Shown here: in pieces, positions 26,801 through 62,886 of the stretch
Layout: each line of letters starts with the position of its first letter
Numbering within the stretch: the stretch's first letter is position 1
NCBI RefSeq assembly: GCF_039555335.1
Contig: NC_092640.1
Location: 41,593,099 to 41,657,098 of the forward strand
Reading direction: 5' to 3'
DNA from: Amphiura filiformis
Lineage: Eukaryota; Echinodermata; Ophiuroidea; Amphilepidida; Amphiuridae
DNA: 64,000 nucleotides
The notes under the pieces: generated by a model
What the model saw: the letters and a program-made list of their open reading frames with translations, nothing else
Told to the model about the DNA's origin: nothing
Databases searched by the model: none
Translations under genes and position numbers: made by a program

Positions 26801-29800
26801 AAGTTTTTACGATCTGCGCATGCTCAGTACCCCATATGATGTTGCCATTACAAGAAAATTCGATTTGTTGTCAGGTAAAACACAGGTTTTGTTTTCAATA
26901 CACTAACTGGAAATTCAATCATACACTCAGCTGCGATTGCTGTTTTCTTTAAACACATATATTTTACTGCATTTTCACCGAAATGTTTTTAAATCGTACG
27001 ATAATAATGTGATATATTCAACTGTTTGAGAAATATAATCATATAAAAAGAACAAGCCAATCCCATTCAGCTAAGATCCTCGTGCTGTATATAGAATATT
27101 AAATCACAAGTCTAAATACAATGTACCATAATGAGACACTATACAACTTTCTTTTTCTTGCGTTCGGTGAAATACCAATCGCCCGTCGCTCACCAATGGA
27201 GTATTAAGACGTGATTCATTGTAGGGAAAAATATTTATTTACAGGTCGTCGACACTGTGGGGTGTGTGCTTATTTTCTGGAATAGCCCAATATGCACTTT
27301 GGTCTTGATCGACGTGCACAAAGTCATGACCATGTGCGATTACCTCGACTAAATGCACTGGGCTCAGCGTATTCCCCCTCGGGATTCTCTCAAAGTAAAC
27401 ATACACTATCTACAAGTAAACATCATAACATATACTGTATTTCATTTGGGCGGTATATTTGACGTATTCTTTTCAATAGTCTGCTCCAAAAGTGTTTTTT
27501 TGTCGTCTGCAATGCGTTTTTACCTGACACCCGGCCGGACCTGACAGAGCAGCGCTGTTGTTCTGCCATGAAAACTGCCGTGCAAAATAATAATAATAGT
27601 CTACATGGAGAAAGTTTGTTTAACCAGTCGGTCCGGGTGGACACACACTTGGGTCCTGATGGGACCAGACCCACGCAAAATGCTCAAGCCAAGCTTAAAA
27701 ACATAGGGCCTATATAATTATGCTGTCCTGTATGAAGAGAAAACTAAAGAAACGGAATGAAGAAAAAGGAAAAGAAAGGCCACTCCCAACAAATCAATTG
27801 TACAATTTTGCTCTTAGCCCTTGAGTCGAGAAATAAAGAAATTGGGAATTCTTATTCCGTGGCCCACTACAAAGGCTGGTTAATTATAAATTAAAGACTT
27901 ATTTCCGAATAATCCAAACATGGCCATTTTATATTTTTAATGTAAGTTGGTGTAACCTCATACAATGACTTGTATCTCTCATATAGTTGGATGTCAGACG
28001 ACATGGTCATAGACATGACGCCTTATTTCCTTGGAGATTGGCCGAATACATACACGTTCACCAAAGCTATAGCTGAGACTGTTATAGTTAAGGAAAGCGT
28101 AGGAATGCCATTGTGTATCGTTAGGCCGTCCATCGTAGGAGCGTCTTGGAAAGACCCCATTCCGGTAAGCAAGAAACCTGATCAAGTAATTAATCAAGCA
28201 ATCGCAGCCAATTGATCGATTGTATTTCAATCCATTACATCCCATTCCGACACGACACGACATGACAGATCCGTCATCGCACCACTCAACCACCATCACG
28301 CGCTTTATCATTGACACCCACGTCACTTGAGTGTTAGAGTACCCGCCTTTGGTGTATGAGGTTCCGGGTGAAATTCCCGACCATGGCAATTTGCTGTAGT
28401 AGGCAAAACACGAATAAAAGTTTTTGTGACCCCTGCAAAATGACAAGATTGTTAGATTGAGTGATTTGTCACTGTTTACTATTTGCCAAATAAGTAAGTC
28501 ATCGGTATACCGATATACAACATCGGTATACCGATATACAACATCAGTATACCGATATACAACATCGGTATACCGATATACAACATCGGTATACCGATAT
28601 ACAACATCGGTATGCCGATATACAACATCGGTATACCGATATACAACATCGGTATACCGATATACAACATCGGTATACCGATATACAATATCGTTATACC
28701 GACATACGGTATCGGTATACCGACATACACCAGCGGTATACCGGTATACAACATCGGTATACAACATCGGTATACAACGTCGGTATACAACATCGGTATA
28801 CAACGTCGGTATACCGATATACAACGTCGGTATACCGATATACAACGTCGGTATACCGATATGAAACGTCGGTTTACCGATGTGAAACGTCGGTTTCTCG
28901 ATATGAAACTTCGGTATACCGATATGAAACATCGGTATACAACATTGGTATATCATTACAATATTGGTATACCGATGTACAACATGGGCGATGCTATGTA
29001 ATTGTGTGGATAAAATTAAATTTTTGAAGGTATTTGGTCCCATACCGGAAATGACCCTTTTGGACGCTGGCTATATCCGATCCATATGTGCAAGTGACGT
29101 TATTCTGCTATCTAATATTTGGAAGGAGCATTTTGAAAGTATTTTTGTCCTATACTGGAATGACCCCTAAATGACATTCGACCTCAATTCCGTGTGCACC
29201 CGAATAAATGCTGGCTATAGTCAAAGTGTTATGTCCAAATCATGTTGCTATGCTGCACAATTTATGGAAGAAGATACATTTTGAAGCAAAAATCACGTTT
29301 GGATGGCCTTTGACCTCGAGTTGGTCATGTGACATTATTATATTCACCTGGCATTGATCCTAATGACCAAATTTGGTAGAAATAACCAAAACATATGGCT
29401 ACGATGGCTCATTACTGATTGCCAGAAAAGCATTAGGAATAACTGAACTCATATATTAACCTTATTAATTATAATTCGTGGTTTTTATCAATGTTGCTTT
29501 ACAGGGTTGGGTAGACAATCTAGCAGGGGCTTCTGGTCTTTTGATTGCAGTAAGTACTTTTTACGGCTGATTTTCATTTTTCGTCATATCACGCAAAATA
29601 TCTAAATGTTCAATGAGGAAGATATATATATCACTACTTTCGGGTTCTGTTGCTTTAGTATACTATCCAGAGGGCGCGCTCGATTCTCGCGATACACGCT
29701 TTATAATGTTCACGAGACCACATATTACGGCTATGGAGGAATATTCTAATAATTTGCTTTGTTTACTCGCAGTCAAGGAAGACTCATGTTTGCTCATTTT

Positions 29801-44799: not shown

Positions 44800-46610
44800 T
44801 ATGATATCTTTTTTTAAATGATGAAAGTAAATTGCAATTTTTAGATAATTTTTTTGGTCATTTGAAGAAGAAAGAAGCCTGCAATGTAGCCTATTATTTA
44901 CGTTTGAGATATGAATGTTTTGAGGTCGGTAACCATGGTAACTGCCCTCGAATGTCTCCTGTCTATATTTCATGCGTTTGATTCAAAGGTCTCTAAAGGA
45001 ATAAACATATAGGCCTAATTAGTGGTAGGCCTACGTATACGCTGACGGGTTATTCAACAGTGCCAATTGGTTATAACGACATCACAAATCTGTTAAGATT
45101 TCGAGACAACTACAGTTTGGCTTGTCTCAAGTTGAGAGTAACGCCATGATGGATTTCGCAGTGGCAAATTCGAATCGCGCGCGTTAACCAAATACCGCGG
45201 GCGTATACACACGCGTACAAGGGCGATTTGTCCGTACGCTCGGGACGCAACCGCGTAAACGCACTAATTCGAATCTTGTCATTGCGTCTCGGCACTGCGT
45301 GTGTTGAAGAGACTCTTGTCTCCAGTATGTTTTTGTACGTATCCAGGACTGACATCCTGGAATCATGTGTTGACATGTTTGTCTTAACTGTTGCTAGTAC
45401 GGTACATTGGTCTCAAATGACGTGAAGCGAATGTAAGCCAAGTTTGTCGAAGAAAATTTGAACGATTTATACTTGTTGGAGGTACATATTATTTGAAAGT
45501 AATATTTCGTGATGACATTTCATATCAAAAGATAGTTAAAGTTTGAAATCTTAAATTTTGCAAATTTGGAGCGTTCATATCCAGATTGCATAGATAATCG
45601 GTTGTGTAATTCAAATGGTTTGCCGAGTGTACTTAATATTATTTTATCCAATGACATTACAATCTTTTCAATAGTCGGGGGATACTGTTAATAAATAATC
45701 TTGATAATTCACTCTGTCTATGCTTATATCATGTATGTTTTCGTAATAAAACTCCAGCCTTTGCTATTGTTTTGTCGTGTTGCATTTATATTTAAATATT
45801 TAGTTTGTTCCCTAAGTGTGTTTGTAGTACGGAATCCTTGAAGTTGAAATAAAATTTTCACGCATTTAGATACACTATGGATCACAATGACCTCATCTTA
45901 ATGGCATAGTTCAATAACTTCAATTAAACACTTACAGTGCAAAATTTGACATCAAGTTGCAGAGTATGAGTTTTTGTACCCAAAATTTCGATGGTCATTC
46001 AATGAATGTACAAATGTATTGGGGTTAAAGAACGGTGCCCTGATAGATGAACATGTTGTGGATCCTAGTGACAGCACAAAGCACACGTTCGACCACAAAG
46101 AGTGTAATTTTAGGAACCGTTCAATATTGACGCCGGGGAAAATGGGAGTTTTAAGAAAGGAATTCGATTCTTTTTTTTTTTTTTTTTGTGGGGGGTGTTA
46201 AGTTTTAAATGGAGAAAAGGGTGAACATGGTGAAACAAGAGGGAATCCAAAAATTGTGAGCGGTCGCGATGGGAACACCATTGTTGTTGTCTTTTGTCAA
46301 AATTTTCACTCCCCCTGTCGTAAATATTAAACGGTTCCTTAGACAGAACGCAAGAAATAAGGGGAGTGATTATGTCCTGCAAGAATAACACTCACTCAAC
46401 AGAAGAGTCAGCCTTCGCCAATTTAGCAGAGCTCTACAATTCTGTAATCAAAATCATTCCGATAAATAAGAAGTTTGACTCAAAATGAACAATTGCTGCC
46501 AGATCAACAGTGCAGTTCAGTTAACCTGAAGATGCACCTGAATGGTGCGATACCGTAGCCTCTCAAAAAAGTGAGTCCATTGGGATAATTGAGTTCAAAA
46601 TCATATTTTA
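44800..46610. other. Intergenic, nothing recognised
   Basis: One CpG-rich patch at 45165-45300 (CGAATCGCGCGCG, ACCGCGGGCG) and a T15 run at 46171-46186. No exon seen. Confidence 0.45.
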
Positions 46611-46679
46611 AATATCAGCATAATGATATGTGTTACCTTTGGGCTATCTGCACTAAATAGCAGCATAATAAGTATTACC

Positions 46680-47440
46680 TTCGTACTTTATCTTCAGTAG
46701 ATAGCAACATTGAAGCCATCTTCAGTAGATAGCAGCATGATGATAGGCGTTACCTTTGTATTTTACTTTATCTTCAGTAGATAGCAGCACAATGAAAGGC
46801 GCTGCCCTTGTATTTAAGCTAGATATAATTCCTGTCGATCATGCCACTGTTTTCCAAAATGATAGGTGTTCCTTTGTATTTTATCGTCAGTAGATAGCAG
46901 CATATTATGATAAGCGGCACCGTCGTATTTTAAGCTATCTTCAGTAGATAGCAGCATAATAATAAGCGGTACCTTTGTATTTTAAGCTATCTTCAGTAGA
47001 TAGTAGCATAATGATAACCGGTACCTTTGTATTTTAAGCTATCTTCAGTAGATAGCAGCATATTATGATAAGCGGTACCTTTGTATTTTAAGCTATCTTC
47101 AGTAGATAGTAGCATAATGATAAGCGGTACCTTTGTATTTTAAGCTATCTTCAGTAGATAGTAGCATAATGATAAGCGGTACCTTTGTATTTTAAGCTAT
47201 CTTCAGTAGATAGTAGCATAATGATAAGCGGTACCTTTGTATTTTAAGCTATCTTCAGTAGATAGTAGCATAATGATAAGCGGTACCTTTGTATTTTAAG
47301 CTATCTTCAGTAGATAGTAGCATAATGATAAGCGGTACCTTTGTATTTTAAGCTATCTTCAGTAGATAGTAGCATATAATGATAAGCGGTACCTTTGTAT
47401 TTTAAGCTATCTTCAGTAGATAGTAGCATAATAAGCGATA
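46680..47440. repeat. 52-bp minisatellite downstream of the reductase gene
   Basis: Unit starts GATAAGCGGTACCTTTGTAT and holds CTATCTTCAGTAGATAG. About seven near-perfect units with exact 52-bp spacing (47067-47430), preceded by diverged units. It lies 130-900 bp past the reductase stop, so it may be in the 3' UTR. Confidence 0.93.
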
Positions 47441-47572
47441 TCTGTTACTATCGTATTGTGAGCTTTTGGTAACATCAAAAAGAAAAACCCGTGTATTTTT
47501 TCTACTCAAAGTTTTAAAAACAAGACAGTTTGTGATTACTAGGGTGACGTCATGCCATGCATGCCATGTGCA

Positions 47573-47823
47573 TCATAATTTGATTTCATTAGGCACAGGT
47601 CTCCCTTCAATAGCAGCTTTTATGTTCTCTAAACAAATTTGGAACTTGACATATAATGTCTCTACGGTGTCCCCTGCTGCGTGTGGCGTGACGATGACGT
47701 TGGACATCTTCAGTAGCGGGTGATCGGGTGGTAATGGTTCGGGTGTTGTCACATCAAGGGCTGCGCCTTGGATGGTGTTGTTGTTGAGTGCTTCGATTAG
47801 GGCATCTTGGTCGATTACATCAC
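47573..47823 (-). CDS. Reductase exon 4, catalytic Glu and His, stop
   Basis: The acceptor is CTTTCTCCAG. Reads GDVIDQDALIEALNNNTIQG, ALDVTTPEPLPPDHPLL, SNVIVTPHAAGDTVET and finishes GRPVPNEIKL, stop TGA at 47575-47573. A transposon ends 21 bp upstream of the acceptor, at 47845. Confidence 0.93.
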
Positions 47824-50800
47824 CTGGAGAAAGTAGGATAAAATGTGACGTGTCATGTCAAAAGGAGACACTTTTGGGCAGGATCGTAAATGGAGAAATA
47901 GCCAAAAATCTGCATGGGGTGATTTTTTCACAATTTGGGTTTGTTGCGAATTTGTAATGTTATTAATGTTAAAAATATTGTCTGATAGTTTCAGACCCGA
48001 ATATAACTAGCATCTTGTAGTTTTGGAGACATTTTTCAAGGTAATTCCTACTCTCAACATTGTGAATAATATTTTTAAAGGCCGATATCTCAATTTCCAA
48101 TTTTATAATACCATAACTTACAAACTAAATATCTTCGCTTAGGAATGTCCGATTACATTGGGGAAAACGGCATTGTGGAGCAAAATATCTCAATATTTAA
48201 GATATGTAAAAAGCTCCAAATTGATAACCTGCCCAAAAGTGTCTCCTTTTGACATGACACGTCACAAATGATCGTAGAAACATTTTATAGGCCTTTGGTG
48301 ATTACGGTACCTTTGTACTCAAGTTGAGTACAATTTAATCAATATTGAGCATGTTGAGTTCTATTTACTCATTTTGTTCCTTTTATGAATCCACATTGAG
48401 TAATTTTGTATTTGCAGTGTGTATAGCTAGGCGCTTCCATGTCTGATTGGATGATGCATGACGTCAGTCTGGCCCCCTCCGCTTCACACTATAATTAGCG
48501 ACGGTTGAATATATTGTATAGTATGCATTAGATATCAGATAGTCAGTTGGATATGTAAAGCAGCATATAGCTTCGATGGGCCCGACTAACGTTTGAAACT
48601 TACGCTACATGGTGGCATTTAATATAAGGCGCATTGTTTCACAATACATAATTTTGCTAATGACAAATATTATTTACCCATCAGTACTATTATAGTTTGC
48701 CTTTGATAAAAATCAACAACAACTTACCACGTGAAATGTTGATTATTGCAGCATTAGGCTTCATCAGTTTCAGTTCCCTCGCACCAATCATGCTTTTCGT
48801 TTTGTCACTTAAAGGTACTGTCAGCATCACGTGATCAGACGTGCGTAGTAACTCCTCGAGATTTTGACAATATTTAGCATTAACACGTTCTTCGTCCTCC
48901 TTACTCCTGGCAGTGGCGGATTTAGAGGGGGGCGCACGCGGCGCGCGCCCCCTCTATTTTGTGCAGATCGGCGCCTGACTCTGTGTATTTTTGCAGAGTG
49001 GCGCCTGACTTTGTGTGGGCGCCGAGCCGCGGCGGCGGTGGCGGTGGCTCGGCGCCCCCTCTATTGAAAATTCCTGGATCCGCCCCTGCCTGGGGTAAAA
49101 CAAAAGATGCGGTGTTGTCATCAATAATACGGAAAATATTTGTACGTTTCCATTTCAACTCTTTGGGCCGATTTCTTGAAACGCGGCTAGAGGCAATTAT
49201 GCCAAAGGGCTAGCCCTACCAATGCAGATTTTTTATAAATTCGATGAAATAAACAATGACAAAAGGTATATAAAAGAAAATAGAGTCAAACCCTAATTCG
49301 GCGTCTCAAGGGCGTTCTTATAGCCTTCCATCTAGCATGTCTAGCCTAGCATATTTGAGCGCATATTACCTTTGGGTTCGATTATGATAGACAATCTTCA
49401 TCTTAAAGGCGGCTGCTCTCTCTGCAATCTGATATCCTATTCTTCCCATACCCACAATGCCAAGCGTGGAGTCCATTAGAAGCGATCCTGAATTCACCAT
49501 TAAGTAGGTACACCAATTGAAGTCTTCGTTAAGGTACGCGTGCATTCCTGGGTAAAATGACCACAAAAAAAAAAACATCAACAAAAAACACTTAGATATT
49601 GAGACAAAATAACATGAATCAAGCGAACACACAAGAGGAATCGTACTATGGGTTCCATAAAGGAACAAGGCTTGATATAATTGGTGTCGTTTCCGTCAAA
49701 TGTACATGGTTTTTCGCGGGAGGGGGACAACTTCGTCGTTTTTGCACTATGATTGTTTTATTGAGGTTATTGGACAATACCATTGCGATGAGGCCATTGT
49801 GGTTCACAGTGATGGTATTTGCACTTAAATATTGAGGCAAATAAAGCTGACACACAAGAGGAATGAAATGGGTCCTATAAAGGATATCCTAAGGCTTGAT
49901 ATAAAGAGTGTCATAATCCCTGTCCGTCCAAAACTTTCGTTTTGATATTATTGGCCTTAACTCAAGAACCACAAACCTTTGGAAATCTAAATACGATTAT
50001 TGGTTTCCTTCGGACTTATTTATATGATCAAGGTATTAATATTTTTAAAAGTACACTGCAATTGTTTTAGTTAAGGGATGGGGTATGAACGTTTGGACAG
50101 CATTTATTGTGGGACATGAGAGCACATCAGACATATCGAATTGCATATTTCAGAATACGAAGAATGTCCTTCTGATATCAAGTAATTTTGATTTTGTGAA
50201 ATTCGCAACGTAATACACATTTTATGGCAAATCATTAAAAATTGATATTTTTGATATTTAACAGTACTCGAAGTAAACCCTGATAATTTATACTTAAAGT
50301 GTATGTAGGTGGGATGAAAAGCCGACGATCAATTGAAAATTTTGACCTTTCGTATTGAAGATATGGATTTTTTTTCCAAAACACCCAAATAAAATGAGGT
50401 CTTTTTGGGAAAAAAATCCATATCATCAATATGAAAGGTCAAAATGTTCAATTGATCGTCGGCTTTTCCTCCCAGCTACATACACTTTAAGAATATATCA
50501 TTAGATTTATAAAATATACTTCGAGGACAGTTATATCAAAAATTTGAAAAATATCAAATTTTAATAATTTGTCATAAAATTTGTATTATATCGTGAATTT
50601 CAAAAAATTAAAATTATTTGATATCAGAAAGACATGCTTCGTATTTAGAATGCAATTCGATACGTCTGAGGTGCTCTCATGTCCCACAAAAATACTGTCG
50701 AAACGCTCAAAACGCTCATTCCAGATCCCTTAAATCACCAAAACTGCAACGGATTCCTGCCATCCCACTCGCCAGATCATCCTGGGCCTGGCCTGGGGCG

Positions 50801-53309
50801 GATTTCACTAAACATGTCATTGTTTTATTTCATACACTATAATTCATCATGTATCCCAGCAAACACAAAAACGTTTTAAAAACGTTTTAAATATATATTT
50901 TGGCTTTTGGTTTAGGTAAAAACGTTTTAATAACATTAAAATGTCGGGTTATATAAAGGTCATGATAACGTTTTAAAAACGTTTTGTATGAAAACACACT
51001 ACAACAATATTTTTAAATGTTTTCAAAAAATGTTATTGTAAACTTTTTTTGCAAACATTTTTGCCAAATATTGTGTCAATACTTTAACATTATGTTAAAA
51101 TATTTAAACCCAGCAAACACAGAAATGTTCTTAAAATGTTTTTTTCAGAACCTTTTAATAACATTTAAATGTCGGGTTATATAAAGGTCATGAAAACGTT
51201 TTTAAAACGTTATTGAAAATATTTTGGGCAAACATTTTTCGCAAAATATTTTTCAACTCCCAAAATAACATTCTGTTTAGAATGTTTTGTATCATGTTTT
51301 CAAGAATGTTTTTGGAATATTATTAAAACGTTTTTATACCCTTTATATAACCCGACATTTAAACGTTTTCTATAAAACATTTTTGTTTGCTGAGCAGTAG
51401 ATTATCAAAAAATGTTTTTTAAGGTTATGAAAACGTTTTATACTGTTAATATACCCTTTATATAACCCGACATTTATACGTTTTGTGACAACCTTTTATA
51501 ACCTTTTGCGAATGATGTCGAAAACGTTTTGTGTTTGCTGGGATCTTCATAAGTATATGTGACCGTCCACCACAAACCAGCCATAAAAGTCTGCCCCGGT
51601 CAATTTGGTTTTGTTGCGTGTTTAGAAAATATGTATCATAAGCTTTAAAATGGTATATCATATGACTTCAAACGATATCCAGAAGCGGGGTTATGATTTG
51701 TTGAACTTTGCTCCTTCAACAAAATGGTACCTATAGGCCTAATTGGCGGTCATTTCAAATCATCCCCAAGTCAACGAGGCACATCGACTTCGCCTGGTAA
51801 ATAATTACATTGTACAGCAGGGAAAGTAAAATCAATACTCGGGATCGATACACGTGTATGTGCTATGCACGATTTGATATTCAGACGATAAATCTTTGGA
51901 TGCCGGGGGAGAAAATGATGAATATCTCCCGTAATGTTTGCTTTCTATAGAAGCCGATTAAGGCTTGCACATGTATATATGTGTTAAAAGAACATGATAG
52001 TCGTTAGCGAGCGTATTGACAAACAACCGTGCGTTTTGAAATCAAAAACTGACAAAAAAAATCAGATTTTATATGTGCAGAACAGAAAAAAATGACAGCT
52101 GCCCTCATTAGTAAACAATCGGGGTAACGAAACATATCACGTTACAAGCGCAATGTGGACCACTGGTGGAAGCAGTCTAATGCAGATGACGTACCAGGCT
52201 CACTGAGATCTACAGAGGTCAGTCACCGGCTATTGTCAATAGCCTTAGTCGGATGTCCCTCGGCCCATTATGCGTCTCAAACTATTAATCAGAAATGCGT
52301 GGTTATTGAAGAACAAGTGGATTCGTCCTATCATGGCGATTTCTGCCATGAAGATGTCGGGGCGATGATACTGTGCGAGGTTCAGGAATGTCCTCTTATT
52401 GTTAATTGTTGGTTATATATACCTAGACAAGATATAATGCATTGTAACCCCCACTTGAACAGGATTTAGCCACAAACAAAGGCTAGAGCTATTTAAGAAT
52501 TCTATAGACATAGGTAGAAACTTATTATCCTCTTCAACAATAGAATTATTGATTGGTTTAAAAGGTGTTTGACTGGCTCTAGCAAAATGAGATAGATGTC
52601 GCACCAACTTGGGGTACCTATGAATACGACCTTCATGCACATTTTACATTGTAACTCAGAATACAATTTGCCGACTTTACGGCTGGTTTGTGGTGGACGG
52701 TCACATATGACACCGACACAACGACACACGACACAAAGTCGGTGTCATGTCATTTTCCGCTCATTACATGTCAAACTGGAATCTCGTCTCAAAAGAGTAT
52801 AATGTTGACAAGTTTTGCGGTAGCAGGTCACAATTGCACCCACCCCCACCCCACACCCACACACCCACACCAATTATCAGATTATTATAAGCATAAATAG
52901 GCCTACCTATTTGTATATTTCTAGCCAATGCAAGCATTAATCCAAATCCAAATTCGGCAGTCGTGTTTGTGATCATTGATGTTACAACATTCGACACTTT
53001 AATACCACGTCTATTCAACATTTGAACATCAAGATGACTGTATCCTGTAGACGGAGTTGCAACTATCTTCAAATTTGGAAACAAAGAGATGAATTTCTCG
53101 TCCTTTATCAAGTTTTTATAACCAAACATATCAGGGATTGGCGCCATTAAAATGCCTTCAATTTCTTCATGTTTTTGACCCGATGAATCAGCAACGAAGT
53201 CTTCATAATACTTAATACGAAAATGTTTTTGGAAAATCGCAAGAATTGCATTCCCTTCCAGTAGGAATTTTCTTGATGAAACTATGAAGGGTAGGCCCCC
53301 TAGTGCCAT
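47573..53309 (-). CDS. D-2-hydroxyacid dehydrogenase, glyoxylate/hydroxypyruvate reductase-like, 4 exons
   Basis: Exons on the - strand: 53309-52907, 49547-49370, 48906-48728, 47823-47573, together 1011 nt (336 aa plus stop), normal for the family. The family reduces glyoxylate and hydroxypyruvate with NAD(P)H in the cytosol or mitochondria. Seen: substrate-domain start with VATPSTGYSHLDV and MITNTTAEFGFGLMLALARN; nucleotide fold GMGRIG (167-172); then the three catalytic residues Arg253 (NISRG), Glu282 (DVTTPEPLPP) and His301 (TPHAAG). All introns are GT-AG with agreeing phases and no stops. The gene sits tail-to-tail with FAR. A second first exon lies at 54837-55230. Transposons abut the acceptors of exons 3 and 4. 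Members of this family differ in substrate (glyoxylate, hydroxypyruvate, 2-ketogluconate), so the exact substrate is not settled. Confidence 0.92.
47845..48265. mobile_element. MITE, GTGACGTGTCA ends, 4-bp target duplication (copy 2)
   Basis: Same family as 2150-2547, flanked by AAAT at 47841-47844 and 48266-48269. It sits in intron 3 of the reductase gene, ending 21 bp from the exon 4 acceptor, so only the polypyrimidine tract of the old intron end remains outside it. Confidence 0.82.
48728..48906 (-). CDS. Reductase exon 3, catalytic Arg
   Basis: Reads SKEDEERVNAKYCQNLEELL, then DHVMLTVPLSDKTKSMIG and PNAAIINISR with the catalytic arginine. The donor is CGTG|GTAAGT. The acceptor CCAG|G overlaps the target-site copy of a transposon that fills 48911-49088. 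Confidence 0.92.
48911..49088. mobile_element. 178-bp element at a splice acceptor, CCTGG target duplication
   Basis: Ends CAGTGGCGGAT and ATCCGCCCCTG (inverted with one mismatch), flanked by CCTGG at 48906-48910 and 49089-49093. GC-rich, non-coding. Inserted exactly at the 3' splice site of reductase exon 3 (- strand). Confidence 0.85.
49370..49547 (-). CDS. Reductase exon 2, nucleotide-binding motif
   Basis: The acceptor is TTTTACCCAG; reads MHAYLNEDFNW, then LGIVGMGRIGYQIAERA and KIVYHNRTQ. The GxGxxG loop defines the Rossmann fold. The donor is CAAAG|GTAATA, leaving two bases that pair with G of exon 3. Confidence 0.92.
49560..50090. other. Reductase intron 1, partly repeated
   Basis: CAAACACACAAGAGGAATCG, GGTTCCATAAAGGA and AAGGCTTGATATAA at 49624-49680 recur at 49846-49900, a local ~220-bp duplication. 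No exon. Confidence 0.5.
50099..50697. mobile_element. 600-bp foldback element, GTGGGACATGAGAGCAC ends
   Basis: GTGGGACATGAGAGCACATC at the left and GGTGCTCTCATGTCCCAC at the right. The inner arms pair around a centre at ~50380 (GCCGACGATCAATTGAAAAT, CATATTGATGATATGGATTT-like). One arm only is found at 15795-15875. In reductase intron 1. Confidence 0.75.
50854..51543. mobile_element. Element with TCCCAGCAAACAC ends and AAAACGTTTT subrepeats
   Basis: TCCCAGCAAACACAAAAACG at the left and CGTTTTGTGTTTGCTGGGA at the right. Inside, AACGTTTTAAAAACGTT and GTCGGGTTATATAAAGG (and its reverse) recur. About 690 bp, non-coding, in reductase intron 1. Confidence 0.78.
51555..52712. mobile_element. 1.16-kb element with ATATGTGACCGTCCACCAC ends
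   Basis: ATATGTGACCGTCCACCACA at the left matches the reverse of TGTGGTGGACGGTCACATAT at the right; the arms extend ~50 bp. No transposase frame seen inside. It ends ~200 bp from the exon 1A donor. Confidence 0.65.
52907..53309 (-). CDS. Reductase exon 1A
   Basis: Starts at the ATG (MALGGLPFIVSSRKF) and runs 134 codons plus one base to the donor ATAG|GTAGGC. It holds most of the first half of the substrate-binding domain, including FGYKNLIKDEKF and ARNIQ. It is the nearer of two similar first exons to exon 2. Confidence 0.9.
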
Positions 53310-53554
53310 TTTCAGTAACTTGCCTGAATAACATTCAGTCGTAGACGGGTCTATCTATACAATGTAAAGTAAACCTACCACAGTACATGACCATGACATG
53401 ACTGCCCGGCATGACTGAGAACTTGACATGCCCTGTTCAAATACGAAGGTGATAATAGAACTATAGTTCACCAGGTCACTGAGTCTAACTTGCTTTATCT
53501 GGATTGCCTTTCGGTGAGTAAAACCGCATTCAGCTGCACTCTAAATTTTCAAAG

Positions 53555-54080
53555 TCATGTTAGTGCTAGTATACTAACACATATTTGTCCCAAAAATACA
53601 AACGCATACAACGCATGTATGCTATGTGTTAGTAGGCCTATATACTAGCACATAAACACTAACACATAGTTGTCCCAAAAAAACCAAACACATACAATTA
53701 TACATACACATGCTAACCGTTAGTACACTAGCACATACACATTCTGAGTGTTAGTAGCACATACATACTAACACATAGTTGTCCAAAAAAACAAACACAT
53801 ATAGGCCTACATACACACCCCAACCGTGAGCATTCTTAGTATACTAACACATACACATTCTGAGTGTTAGTAGCACATAAACACTAACACTAACGCATGT
53901 ATGCTATGTGTTAGTAGGCCTATACTAGCACATAAACACTAACACATAGTTGTCCCCCCCCCAAAAAAAAAACCCCACATACAATACATACACATGCTAA
54001 CCGTTAGTACACCCCCACATACACATTCTGAGTGTTAGTATATAGCACATAAACACTAACACATAGTTGTTGGGGTTTAA
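53555..54080. repeat. Degenerate minisatellite between the two first exons
   Basis: Units of CACATAGTTGTCC, ACACATGCTAACCGTTAGTA and CACATTCTGAGTGTTAGTA recur at least four times. It lies upstream (5') of exon 1A on the - strand, where a promoter would be expected. Confidence 0.8.
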
Positions 54081-54363
54081 ATGGGCAAAATGAGGTTAAT
54101 TTGGTCAGAAACCCATTATCAGGCGTCAACATTGGGGGGATGATTGTATGGACCATCCCCTGGCAAAATATGGGGGGGGTAAATCCCCGGATCTACGCCT
54201 ATGAAAGTAGCCTACCGAATGATATACCGTAAACACAAAGCTGGGGCACAATGACATTTTGTAAGGCTTGTTTTCCACTCATTACAATGTCAAACTGGAA
54301 TCTCGTCTAAAAAAGTTTAATGTTGACAAGTTTTGTGGGAGCAGGTCACAATTACACACACTA

Positions 54364-54817
54364 TCTCAAAAAAAGTAACTAACCCCCCTTAAATAATGGT
54401 CATTATTCAAAAAGGGGCTACTGTATTACAAATCTGTAAAATGCATTGAAAGCAGAATTTATTTCTGCGCATTTTGACACCTCATTTGATACGATAGCCC
54501 AGAAAACAATAAAACACCGGTCAATTTAATGTATAGTGAGGTCCAGATTTGAAAGTTGCACTTACATACACATTTTTACAATACAAAAAACATTACACTG
54601 AATACAAAATCAATACAATTTACTGCAACTTTCAAATCTTGGGTTACATTGATTTAAATGTACGCTGTGACGTCAATATTTAGTCAATTGCTGCAAATGA
54701 GGTGTCAAAATTTGCAGAAATAAATTCTGCTTCCAACGCATTTTACAGATTTGTAATACATTCACCCGTTTTTGAATAATGGTCATTATTTAAGGGGGGT
54801 AGTTACTTTTTTTGAGA
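54364..54817. mobile_element. 454-bp inverted-repeat element next to exon 1B
   Basis: TCTCAAAAAAAGTAACTA at the left and TAGTTACTTTTTTTGAGA at the right. The long arms include AATAATGGTCATTATT and TTTGACACCTCATTTG with reverses. It starts 19 bp past the donor of exon 1B. Confidence 0.8.
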
Positions 54818-54836
54818 TGTTTATAAATAAGCCTAC

Positions 54837-55230
54837 CTCTGTGTATATTTCTAGCCAAAGCAAGCATTAATCCAAATCCAAATTTGGCAGTCGTGTTTGT
54901 GATCATGGATGTTACAATATTCGACACTTTAATACCGCGTCTATTCAACATTTGAACATCAACATGACTGTATCCTGTAGACGGAGTTGCAACTATCTTC
55001 AAATTTGGAAACAAACAGATGAATTTCTCGTCATTTATATAACCAAACATATCACGAATTGGTACAAGTAAAATGCCTTCAATTTCTTCATCATTTTGAT
55101 GTCTTTGACCCGGTGAATCAGCAACGAAGTCTTCGTAATATTTAATACGAAAATGTTTTTGGAAAATCGCAAGAATGTCATTCCCTTTCAGTAGGAATTT
55201 TCTTGATGAAATTATGCAGGGTAGTTCCAT
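54837..55230 (-). CDS. Reductase exon 1B, duplicate first exon
   Basis: An intact copy of exon 1A: MELPCIISSRKFLLKGND, the same VATPSTGYSHVDVQML and ARNIHR, with small in-frame indels (three residues gained near residue 45, three lost near FGYINDEKF). It ends AGAG|GTAGGC, in the same phase 1 as exon 1A, so it could splice to exon 2. No second exon 2-4 set lies between it and exon 1A. It is either an alternative first exon with its own promoter or a stranded duplicate. An element at 54364-54817 starts 19 bp past its donor. Confidence 0.8.
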
Positions 55231-55330
55231 TTTCAGTATTAAACTTGCCTTAATAGCTCTTAATCTCTGGCTCTTAATAGCATTCAGTCGTACACAGTCT
55301 ATACATGTAACCTACCACAGCACTTGACTG

Positions 55331-57070
55331 CCCACTACTACCCCGGGGACTACTACCAGGCGGCTGACACTGAAAAATTTGCATGGAAAAATGACCCGTC
55401 TCCTCCGCAGCCAATTTGGTTCCGCTCCATCGAAATCAAGCCGGTCACGGAGGAGACTACCCTCCTTTGTGTTTGTTCATTTGTGTATGGAGAGCCCTTT
55501 TGGAGTCGGGAATGACTTAGGCTACGCTCTCAGCTAGAGTCCGACGCTGCATTGCACTAGAAATACCTTTTCTGTGAAATCGCTATAGAGCCAACCGGGA
55601 GCACGTATTCGTTTTGAAAATATAGCATTAAAATTAGTATCACCATTGTGGCCACCGTGCAGTGGAAAACCTTAATTCTTTCATTAAAAGGAAATGAAAA
55701 TTAAAAAAAACACGGATCTACTTGTGCACCAATAAAATTGGCACAGCAATTTGTCTCAAATATGAATGAATTTTAAGAAACATACGGGGTATGATGAACA
55801 TTGACCTGACGCCATGATAGTAGGATCTATTAGTCGTTTTATATACAATGTATATACCGTATTGTCATAATACCAATATTTGTCATTATATATAATGAGT
55901 AATATCTAGCAACGTAAATGTGCAGTTCATATGCACAAACGAATACTGATCTTTATGATATTCAGGTATTTGTACATCACATATAACATGTCACATAGGA
56001 GGTCATACGTGTTGACCTTCATCTATTGTATTTGTTCATCTGTGTATGGAGAGGATTAGCGCCATTAAACGCCATTAAAACGCCATCAGTATTAGGGCGT
56101 AGTTCAGTGAACTCACCGGATTGCTATTCCAAGTACTTTGATAATACAGATAATATGTATTAATGGGTCGAGGCGATTGCATTGAAAAACCTAATAAATT
56201 ATTCATAACAGTTACGTAATCAATCGATAGTGCGGACACTTTTATTTGCAAACCACCAAAATTCGTGATCTTTTAGCGTTGGAAAAGAAACCACGTGAAT
56301 AGAGTGCCCTCTCAAGAATATCAACTCTCTGCTACTACCTTCATGGACTGACCGTACCACTCCTCACTGCGGCATGCTCCTAGTGTTTCTAGAATGCTGT
56401 TAAAATAAGAACGATTTTAATGCTAATTTATTGCACATTCATGCTAAGGAAGCCTGATTAACTTTTTGAAATAGCCGTGTGGGAGGATTTTCAATGAAAT
56501 ATTTTTTGTGTAAAAACTGAAGCATCCTATGTATAAAATTAAAAGAATATATGAATATTAACTGCACATCATAACGATTCGTGATACCAATTGTGGTACA
56601 AATCCGTACAAAAAGATGTCGTTTAGGAAGCAGGGAATTTTATTTGAATTTTATATACGCCGAAACAATTTTTGAATTTAGTGAAAATGAAGACTGAAAA
56701 GTTGGTGAAAAAATCTATGCAAAAATACATAAAACCACGCTAAAGACTACTGTTTCGTTTTTATGGTAATCTAATCTTTTAATTTCTTAAATTAATCATA
56801 GGGTTCTATGCGGAAATTTTATATAAAAGGGGAAAAACCCAAAAAATGTCAGGCTCATAAACACATTGCACTGACCGATAGGTCCTACCATTCACAGTCA
56901 AAATCGATATGTATTGTGCGCATGTATATAAAGGCCTATGCAGAAACACGCAACTTAACAACAATTTAGCACTACATGTATAAAACACATTAAAGTTTTT
57001 AAGCAGATAAGATTCTAAAATATGCTACGTTTTCTTTTTTTGCTTTGCTTGTCATGATATTGTTATATTC
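55331..57070. other. 5' flank of exon 1B, no gene recognised
   Basis: A GC-richer patch at 55320-55510 has a 63-codon + strand frame without known motifs. The rest is AT-rich. A promoter for exon 1B, if used, should lie near 55231-55400, but no core element is clear. Confidence 0.4.
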
Positions 57071-57074
57071 TATA

Positions 57075-58140
57075 CCCGATATGTTGGAGTTACACATACC
57101 CACTTGGAAAAATTATCCAGAAACACAGATTGAACTATCACATATACGCAGATGATACGCAAATATATACAGAATTTAATCCCCGCATACCTGGAGATAG
57201 TGTAACTGCTCTTTTCAAATTGGAATCATGTATTGCTGAAATCAAGAATTGGATGAATGTAAATAAGCTTAAACTGAATGAAGATAAAACCGAATTCTTT
57301 GTTGCTAGCTCTGCATATAATTTGAAATAAATATATGAACCAACTCTTAATGTATGTGGAACAATTATCAAACCATCTGATTCTGTACGCAACCTTGGAG
57401 TTCTTTTTGATTCAACCATGTCTATGTCATCTCAAATATCTGCTGTCTCTCGCTCTTTAAATTATCATCTTCGTAATATAGGACGCATTCGCTGTTATAT
57501 TGATAAAGATACTTGCAACCATGCTGTCCGCTCACTTGTTATTTCTCGAATTGATTATTGTAACTCTTTATTATATGGAACAACTGTAAAAAACACACAA
57601 AAACTACAAAAGATACAAAACAGAGCTGACAGACTTGTTTTCAAGGCAAACCGTATGGAACACACCACTCCTCTGCTGAAAGAGCTTCACTGGCTTCCAG
57701 TAAATGAGCGTATTACCTACAAACTACTCACATTCGCTTATAAAAGTAGACATGAAACAACACCACTGTACATACAAAATCTCCTAAAATCTCACACATT
57801 TTCTGATGGTATGTTCCTACGATCACATGCTGATGGCAGTCTGCTTGAATGTAAAAGAACTCACACAACATATGGGAATAATGCCTTCTGTAATTCTGTG
57901 CCAGCTCTCTGGAACAAATTACCTGTAAAACTTCGTACTTCACATAGTCTGGCCACTTTTAAATCTAATCTGAAAACATATTTGTTTCCAAACTAAGTTT
58001 TTTATTTTTAATTAAGTTGTACATTAAGTGTAGCCTAAGATGTAGTGTAAGTTGTACTTTTTAAGATCATTGTAAAGCGCTTTGTTCATACTTTATGCTA
58101 AGGCGCTATATAAATTCCGTTTATTGTATTGTATTGTATT
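57075..58140 (+). mobile_element. 5'-truncated non-LTR retrotransposon (LINE) with reverse transcriptase end
   Basis: The frame reads YPLGKIIQKHRLNYHIYADD, carrying the reverse transcriptase YADD motif, then NWMNVNKLKLNEDKTEF, a TAA at 57328-57330, then a clean frame to 57996 (VRNLGVLFDS, SRIDYCNSLLYG, LHWLPVNERITYKLL, PALWNKLPVKLR). This is the end of a CR1/L2/jockey-type polymerase. The 3' tail has AAGCGCTTTG, GGCGCTATATAAAT and a run of TATTG. Only the last ~300 codons survive and one codon is nonsense, so the copy is dead. Confidence 0.88.
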
Positions 58141-62075: not shown

Positions 62076-62598
62076 TTTATGGAGGGCATAAGCCATCTGT
62101 TGCCGAAATGAGTAACATGTAATTTGCACAAACCCACTTCTAGGCCAATCAAATTTAAAAAATCACCCACCACTAATTGCAACAGAAACCATTTAATCAC
62201 CATTAATTTCAGAAAAATGTATTACAGAACATTAAAATTCTCCAACAGTGTCTAATTTGCATGGATCCAAAATGGCCGCTTATGCAGGGGTGAAATTTCA
62301 AATTTGGTCAATTGTTTATAAAACCATACCAATGTATTCCTTTCGTAATAAGGATTCAGAAAAAGTATAGTTTGACCTATCTCCGATATACGTTTCTTGA
62401 GTTATAGGTGAAAAGGTCAAATGTCAAAATTTGGATTCCACAGGGGGACAAAAATTGAAAAATGCTCTGATTTTGATCAAAATGGTTTCATATTGCTCCG
62501 CGTGCAGAAACATTTAAAAAAAGAATAGTTTGCCATATATCAGGTGGTTTGTTACCTTGGTAACAAGGCAAAGAAGATGAGCCCTGTTGACTTTGACC

Positions 62599-62711
62599 TA
62601 GTAGCAGGTGATCGGGTGGTAATGGTTCGGGTGTGGTCACATCGAGGGCTTCGACTTGGATGGTGTGGTTGTTGAGTGCTTCGATTAGGGCATCTTGGTC
62701 AATTACGGCAC
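62599..62711 (-). pseudogene. Reductase exon 4 relic (5' part)
   Basis: After ATTTTATCCAG it reads AVIDQDALIEALNNHTIQVE, ALDVTTPEPLPPDHLLL, matching exon 4 of the gene at 47.6 kb almost base for base. The match stops abruptly at about 62599, before the catalytic His motif. It is a broken copy of the last exon and indicates a former tandem copy of the gene. Confidence 0.8.
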
Positions 62712-62784
62712 CTGGATAAAATGATCGCACAAAATAGTTATACAAGTTGAATACAGTGCCAAGTTGCCAACCCCATAAAAACAT

Positions 62785-62886
62785 TGTTTTGACAGTTGCC
62801 CCTGCTGCGTGTGGGGTGACGATGACATTGGACATCTTCAGCTCGAGTGGTAATGGTTCAGGCGTGGTTGTTGTGTGCTTCGCATC
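62785..62886 (-). pseudogene. Reductase exon 4 relic (middle part, deleted)
   Basis: Reads TTPEPLP, then KMSNVIVTPHAAGATVKT, with the upstream IQGAALDV segment and the PDHPL codons deleted. It then runs into unrelated sequence. It overlaps the neighbouring relic in content (TTPEPLP), so these are two separate damaged exon copies rather than halves of one. Confidence 0.75.

Follow-up and report, generated by a model that had tools for sequence, protein, structure and literature searches.

A transposon insertion flanked by two CCAGG acceptor sequences in a reductase gene of Amphiura filiformis

Background

We analysed a stretch of 64,000 nucleotides from Amphiura filiformis (assembly GCF_039555335.1, contig NC_092640.1, positions 41,593,099 to 41,657,098 of the forward strand), called the window below, with all positions counted from its first letter. 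Its minus strand carries a four-exon gene for a glyoxylate/hydroxypyruvate reductase B-like protein, and a 178-bp non-autonomous DNA transposon with hAT-like ends, a miniature inverted-repeat transposable element (MITE), lies at 48911..49088, exactly where intron 2 of this gene meets exon 3. The pentamer CCTGG stands on both sides of the element, and on the gene strand both copies read CCAGG and contain an acceptor AG. We call the copy that adjoins exon 3 the inner acceptor and the copy beyond the element the outer acceptor. A first-pass annotation had proposed that a transposon inserted on the 3' splice site and duplicated its acceptor, and here we examine the gene, the element and the two acceptors.

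Results

Host gene

The conceptual protein of the gene was used in a protein search, and its best match among the best 120 of 5,140 matches listed was P0001, a glyoxylate/hydroxypyruvate reductase B-like protein of 333 aa from A. filiformis. Translation of four minus-strand exons reproduces P0001 residue for residue: coding exon 1 (54837..55230), exon 2 (49370..49547), exon 3 (48728..48906), which starts at the inner acceptor, and exon 4 (47573..47823), which includes the stop codon. GT/AG borders and an open frame were found for all four exons. Both Pfam domains of such reductases are present in the protein, 2-Hacid_dh (E 1.1e-12) and 2-Hacid_dh_C (E 3.8e-61), and judged by these domains the host is a D-2-hydroxyacid dehydrogenase (GRHPR-like) gene. 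Because the paralogues P0002 and P0003 share with P0001 the residues TQRSKEDEE across the exon 2/3 junction, a comparison made at the protein level only, this junction is probably older than the insertion. By translated search, neither exon 2 nor exon 3 occurs a second time in the window, and hence no paralogous empty site can be read there.

Other parts of the gene do recur in the window. Coding exon 1 has a second copy with an open frame on the minus strand at 52907-53309, between exon 1 and exon 2 of the model; the region 52893-53330 is 86.9% identical to 54823-55255, and the ratio of nonsynonymous to synonymous divergence is about 0.60 (128 codons, simple count). This copy has a GT donor in the same phase and is a candidate alternative first exon, unused by P0001. 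Exon 4 recurs as two partial copies at 62590-62868 on the minus strand, one matching at 83% across 41 aa and the other at 71% across 34 aa; they are left over either from additional copies of the gene or from a rearrangement. Just downstream of the gene, at 46609-47464, there is a tandem repeat whose unit recurs about every 52 bp.

The inserted element and its target site duplication

The coordinates proposed for the element held in both the reading of the sequence and the repeat analysis. Its terminal inverted repeats are CAGTGGCGGAT at 48911..48921 (plus strand) and CAGGGGCGGAT at 49078..49088 (minus-strand reading), which agree at 10 of 11 positions; as read along the forward strand the two ends are CAGTGGCGGAT and ATCCGCCCCTG. 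The flanking copies of CCTGG, identical to each other, lie at 48906-48910 and 49089-49093. The first of them holds the inner acceptor AG and the first base of exon 3, which the P0001 model starts at 48906, so the duplication does sit on the exon 3 acceptor as had been claimed; the second carries the AG of the outer, ancestral acceptor. G+C makes up 65.7% of the element and 36.5% of the window, and 36.67% is reported for the A. filiformis assembly in the genome paper (PMC11310086). The element is non-coding and, at this length, too small for a transposase. The 178-bp insert is a transposon insertion, and we find this convincing because its ends match a published MITE terminus and because the duplicated pentamer is the acceptor of an exactly reproduced gene model.

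No second copy of the element was found within the window. Two translations of the element had no match at E up to 1 in protein searches, the element had no match in phages, its terminus pattern had none in viral contigs, and Rfam at gathering thresholds gave no match in 45000-56000. The terminus pattern was matched once in genome contigs, in a contig of a Coriobacteriaceae metagenome-assembled genome (locus L001, 213 bases read); since several such matches are expected by a rough estimate, we took it as chance or a contaminant. A 37-bp match to the element in one plasmid record (E 4e-3) was likewise taken as chance.

Inverted ends next to a 5-bp repeat are not rare by themselves. We scanned the window for 11-nt inverted ends with at most one mismatch, flanked by an exact 5-bp repeat and lying 60-800 bp apart, and obtained 53 matches, of which 48 come from one minisatellite (28.5-29.0 kb) and the other 5, this element among them, from the rest of the window. 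The same scan in 20 first-order Markov sequences gave a mean of 0.7 matches. Once the ends are given, a pair of identical 5-bp flanks at a spacing of 178 bp is met at 167 of 63,805 positions of the window (0.26%). The repeat units of the minisatellite (28500-28990) contain CATCGGTATAC and mostly follow each other at 21 bp; the open frames that it yields on either strand are long and probably spurious.

Family placement

In a comparison confined to the termini, the ends of the element agree with those of silkworm MITEs that are like Pegasus, which we take to belong to hAT. The ends of three of these, BmMITE-13, -14 and -16, are reported as CAAGGGCGGATCCAG, CAGTGGCGGATTA and CAGTGGCGGATTT, and the silkworm elements are described as 263-431 bp long with 8-bp target duplications (PMC2997013). 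The Amphiura element is likewise short, but it has 178 bp and a 5-bp duplication, and its 8-bp flanks, ACTCCTGG and CCTGGGGT, differ. Duplications of 8 bp are also reported for a Drosophila hAT MITE (PMC3517528). Within hAT, the animal group hAT5 is described as having 5-bp target duplications (PMC12730594, citing Kapitonov and Jurka 2007), which is the length of the CCTGG repeat found here on both sides; this placement goes by duplication length. The element is thus probably a hAT MITE of hAT5-like type. No paper came up in a literature search that combined CCTGG with target site duplications and terminal inverted repeats.

Further probable or candidate mobile sequences lie in the window. About 423 bp in intron 3 (47844-48266), with long inverted ends seen by eye and an 88% identical copy at 2149-2548, are probably another non-autonomous DNA transposon in the reductase gene. 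A candidate DNA element of 418 bp at 50941-51358 has perfect 11-nt inverted ends, ATGTCGGGTTA, and TTAAA on both sides. On the plus strand at 57418-57996, an open frame of 192 aa, without a Pfam match at E 0.001, presumably resembles the end of a non-LTR (long terminal repeat) retrotransposon reverse transcriptase.

The two acceptors and their reading frames

The inner acceptor reads ...CCGCCACTGCCAG|GAGTAAG, with exon 3 from 48906, and is the one used by the public model. The outer acceptor, ...TTTTGTTTTACCCCAG|GCAGGGG at 49089, retains a pyrimidine tract (13 of 16 positions are pyrimidines), and the ancestral polypyrimidine tract TTTTGTTTTACCCC (49092..49105, minus strand) now lies upstream of the element. 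We joined the two flanks in silico and obtained ttttgttttaccccag|GAGTAA, a canonical acceptor; intron 2, which measures 463 nt with the inserted 183 nt, then measures 280 nt. Since the joined flanks give a canonical acceptor at a junction that is probably ancestral, the insertion hit an existing acceptor and duplicated it.

The first-pass annotation had stated that the inner acceptor keeps the frame and that the outer one would add about 183 bp to the mRNA, and both statements stood. The two acceptors are exactly 183 nt apart, a multiple of three, and splicing at the outer one would bring in an in-frame TAG after which the protein ends at 235 aa. The region tested begins 60 nt before the outer acceptor and extends 10 nt into exon 3; it contains 17 AGs, and only three give the full reading frame: 48951 (348 aa), 48906 (333 aa, as in P0001) and 48903 (332 aa). 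None of the 16 AGs other than 48906 gives a protein of 333 aa, and 48906 has the best splice score of the three. All splice scores come from approximate, general consensus frequencies that are not fitted to echinoderms, and they serve for ranking only; on this scale the acceptors of exon 2 and exon 4 reach 5.9 and 10.2, respectively. A second AG four bases past the outer acceptor (exon from 49085) scores 5.8 and would also truncate the protein.

Predicted RNA fold

The gene-strand RNA of 49140-48896 is predicted to fold with -114.4 kcal/mol, compared to a mean of -79.5 (sd 4.65) for 200 shuffles (z -7.5). The stem formed by the terminal repeats runs on through both CCAGG copies and a few flanking bases, with arms of 21 nt that are 86% complementary; it extends through the duplication copies because CCAGG is nearly a palindrome. 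Since MITEs in general should form strong hairpins, we do not regard this one as evidence of a selected function.

Discussion

We favour, with some confidence, the reading that a hAT5-like MITE inserted into the CCAGG acceptor of intron 2, that the acceptor was thereby duplicated, and that splicing now goes mainly to the inner AG. On this reading, a MITE with a 5-bp target duplication entered the pentamer that formed the 3' splice site, and target repair copied this pentamer and left AG|G on each side of the element. If the inner AG is the one mainly used, the element would leave with intron 2 and the protein would be unchanged. The inner acceptor is favoured because the public model uses it, because the gene and its frame are intact, and because the source name of P0001 carries no isoform label, a weak point, whereas those of P0008 and P0009 from the same species do. 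Two routes to the inner AG may be considered. In the first, the end of the element itself would supply a branch point and the pyrimidines CCCCCCTCT, within an AG-free stretch of about 43 nt; in the second, the hairpin of the element would bring the old branch point and pyrimidine tract beside the inner AG. The outer AG is likely to be used to some extent as well, and this would give a truncated product.

Several observations weigh against predominant use of the inner acceptor. The chief one is the consensus score, which is 8.5 for the outer and only 1.4 for the inner acceptor; among the 6,138 AGs of the window on both strands, 8.9% score at least as high as the inner one and 0.23% at least as high as the outer one. 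No AG occurs in the 60 nt scanned upstream of the outer AG, and 12 more AGs lie between the outer and the inner one, an arrangement in which the first-AG rule would favour the outer AG. Read by eye against a general consensus, the final 45 nt of the element show no perfect branch-point motif. The choice of acceptor in the public model may itself reflect the open frame and not reads. The predicted fold does not help the inner site either: its CAG has a mean unpaired probability of 0.34 and is about as hidden as the outer one, and the 18 nt before the inner AG are unpaired at 0.13 compared to 0.19-0.42 for the outer pyrimidine tract. In the model, therefore, the hairpin hides both acceptors, the inner one more if anything.

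These observations lend themselves to an alternative in which the ancestral outer acceptor is still the one used, which we regard as rather unlikely. The transcript would then gain the 183 nt and encode the protein of 235 aa. By arithmetic, its stop codon precedes the last exon junction by some 226 nt, beyond the 50-55 nt of the nonsense-mediated decay rule, and for that reason decay of the message is expected; the insertion would be a loss-of-function or strongly reduced allele of a gene that is otherwise intact. The pyrimidine tract and the higher score of the outer acceptor fit this alternative, but the public model takes the inner acceptor and gives a full-length protein, and the exons downstream are all intact. 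In the predicted hairpin the outer CAG is also less exposed than in the joined-flank control: its mean unpaired probability is 0.36-0.37, compared to 0.50-0.81 for the control's CAG (three flank lengths).

It is also unlikely, in our estimate, that the insertion is a polymorphism carried by only one haplotype, with any transcripts behind the public model coming mainly from the empty allele and the choice of acceptor hardly exposed to selection. The genome paper reports a heterozygous peak in the k-mer spectra, half of which is missing from the primary assembly once haplotypes had been removed; it also places a burst of repeat activity, mostly of DNA transposons, at 10-15 million years ago (PMC11310086). 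Both would suit such an insertion, as would the identity of the two duplication copies, but the assembled sequence analysed here shows no sign of an empty allele. Finally, a chance GC-rich inverted repeat beside a chance 5-bp repeat, with no transposon at all, is very unlikely, for although such ends turn up in simulated windows and the element lacks a second copy in the window and any match in phages or viral contigs, its ends match a published MITE terminus, its G+C content stands far above that of the window, and its joined flanks restore a canonical acceptor at the ancestral junction.

An insertion at an acceptor with duplication of the target has a precedent in the merle short interspersed element (SINE) of dog PMEL. 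That element is reported to lie in the original acceptor at an intron-exon boundary with a 15-bp target duplication on both sides; the review links the duplication to the exon-11 end with the original acceptor and is unclear in what it says about the other copy. Whether a cryptic or the original acceptor is spliced reportedly shifts with the length of the element's poly(T) (PMC7349775, PMC6091007). As far as these accounts go, the likeness to our case lies in a duplication at an acceptor, an upstream acceptor that competes with the original one, and a frame that is kept. The merle element, however, is a retrotransposon with the alternative acceptor and its pyrimidine tract inside the element and the original acceptor downstream, whereas the Amphiura element is a DNA element with the strong ancestral acceptor upstream and the weaker copy downstream. 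Introners, which are introns derived from DNA transposons, offer a second comparison: many of their families are described as carrying terminal inverted repeats, as making short target duplications and as drawing their splice sites from these duplications (PMC9860276). The Amphiura element shares the first two features and, on the favoured reading, the third, but introners make new introns while this element lengthens the existing intron 2. A further candidate precedent (PMC2613891) is not a parallel. Our literature searches, which were few and narrow, met no DNA MITE that acts in this way at an existing acceptor in an echinoderm. The principle is already known, and the Amphiura case is a neat example of it and not a new mechanism.

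A broader proposal is that the Amphiura family of hAT5-like MITEs prefers the near-palindromic CCWGG and thus hits 3' splice sites above chance, each time making a tandem acceptor separated by a hairpin. We consider this quite improbable. If it were true, such a family would duplicate splice sites wherever it moved, and this would be tolerated because the frame is kept by the copied AG and because the palindromic duplication lengthens the hairpin that loops the element out. The locus itself offers a naturally occurring test of spliceosomal choice between two CCAGG acceptors, one with a good pyrimidine tract and the other separated from that tract by a 178-nt hairpin, and it illustrates how a gene hit on a splice site could be saved by the target site duplication.
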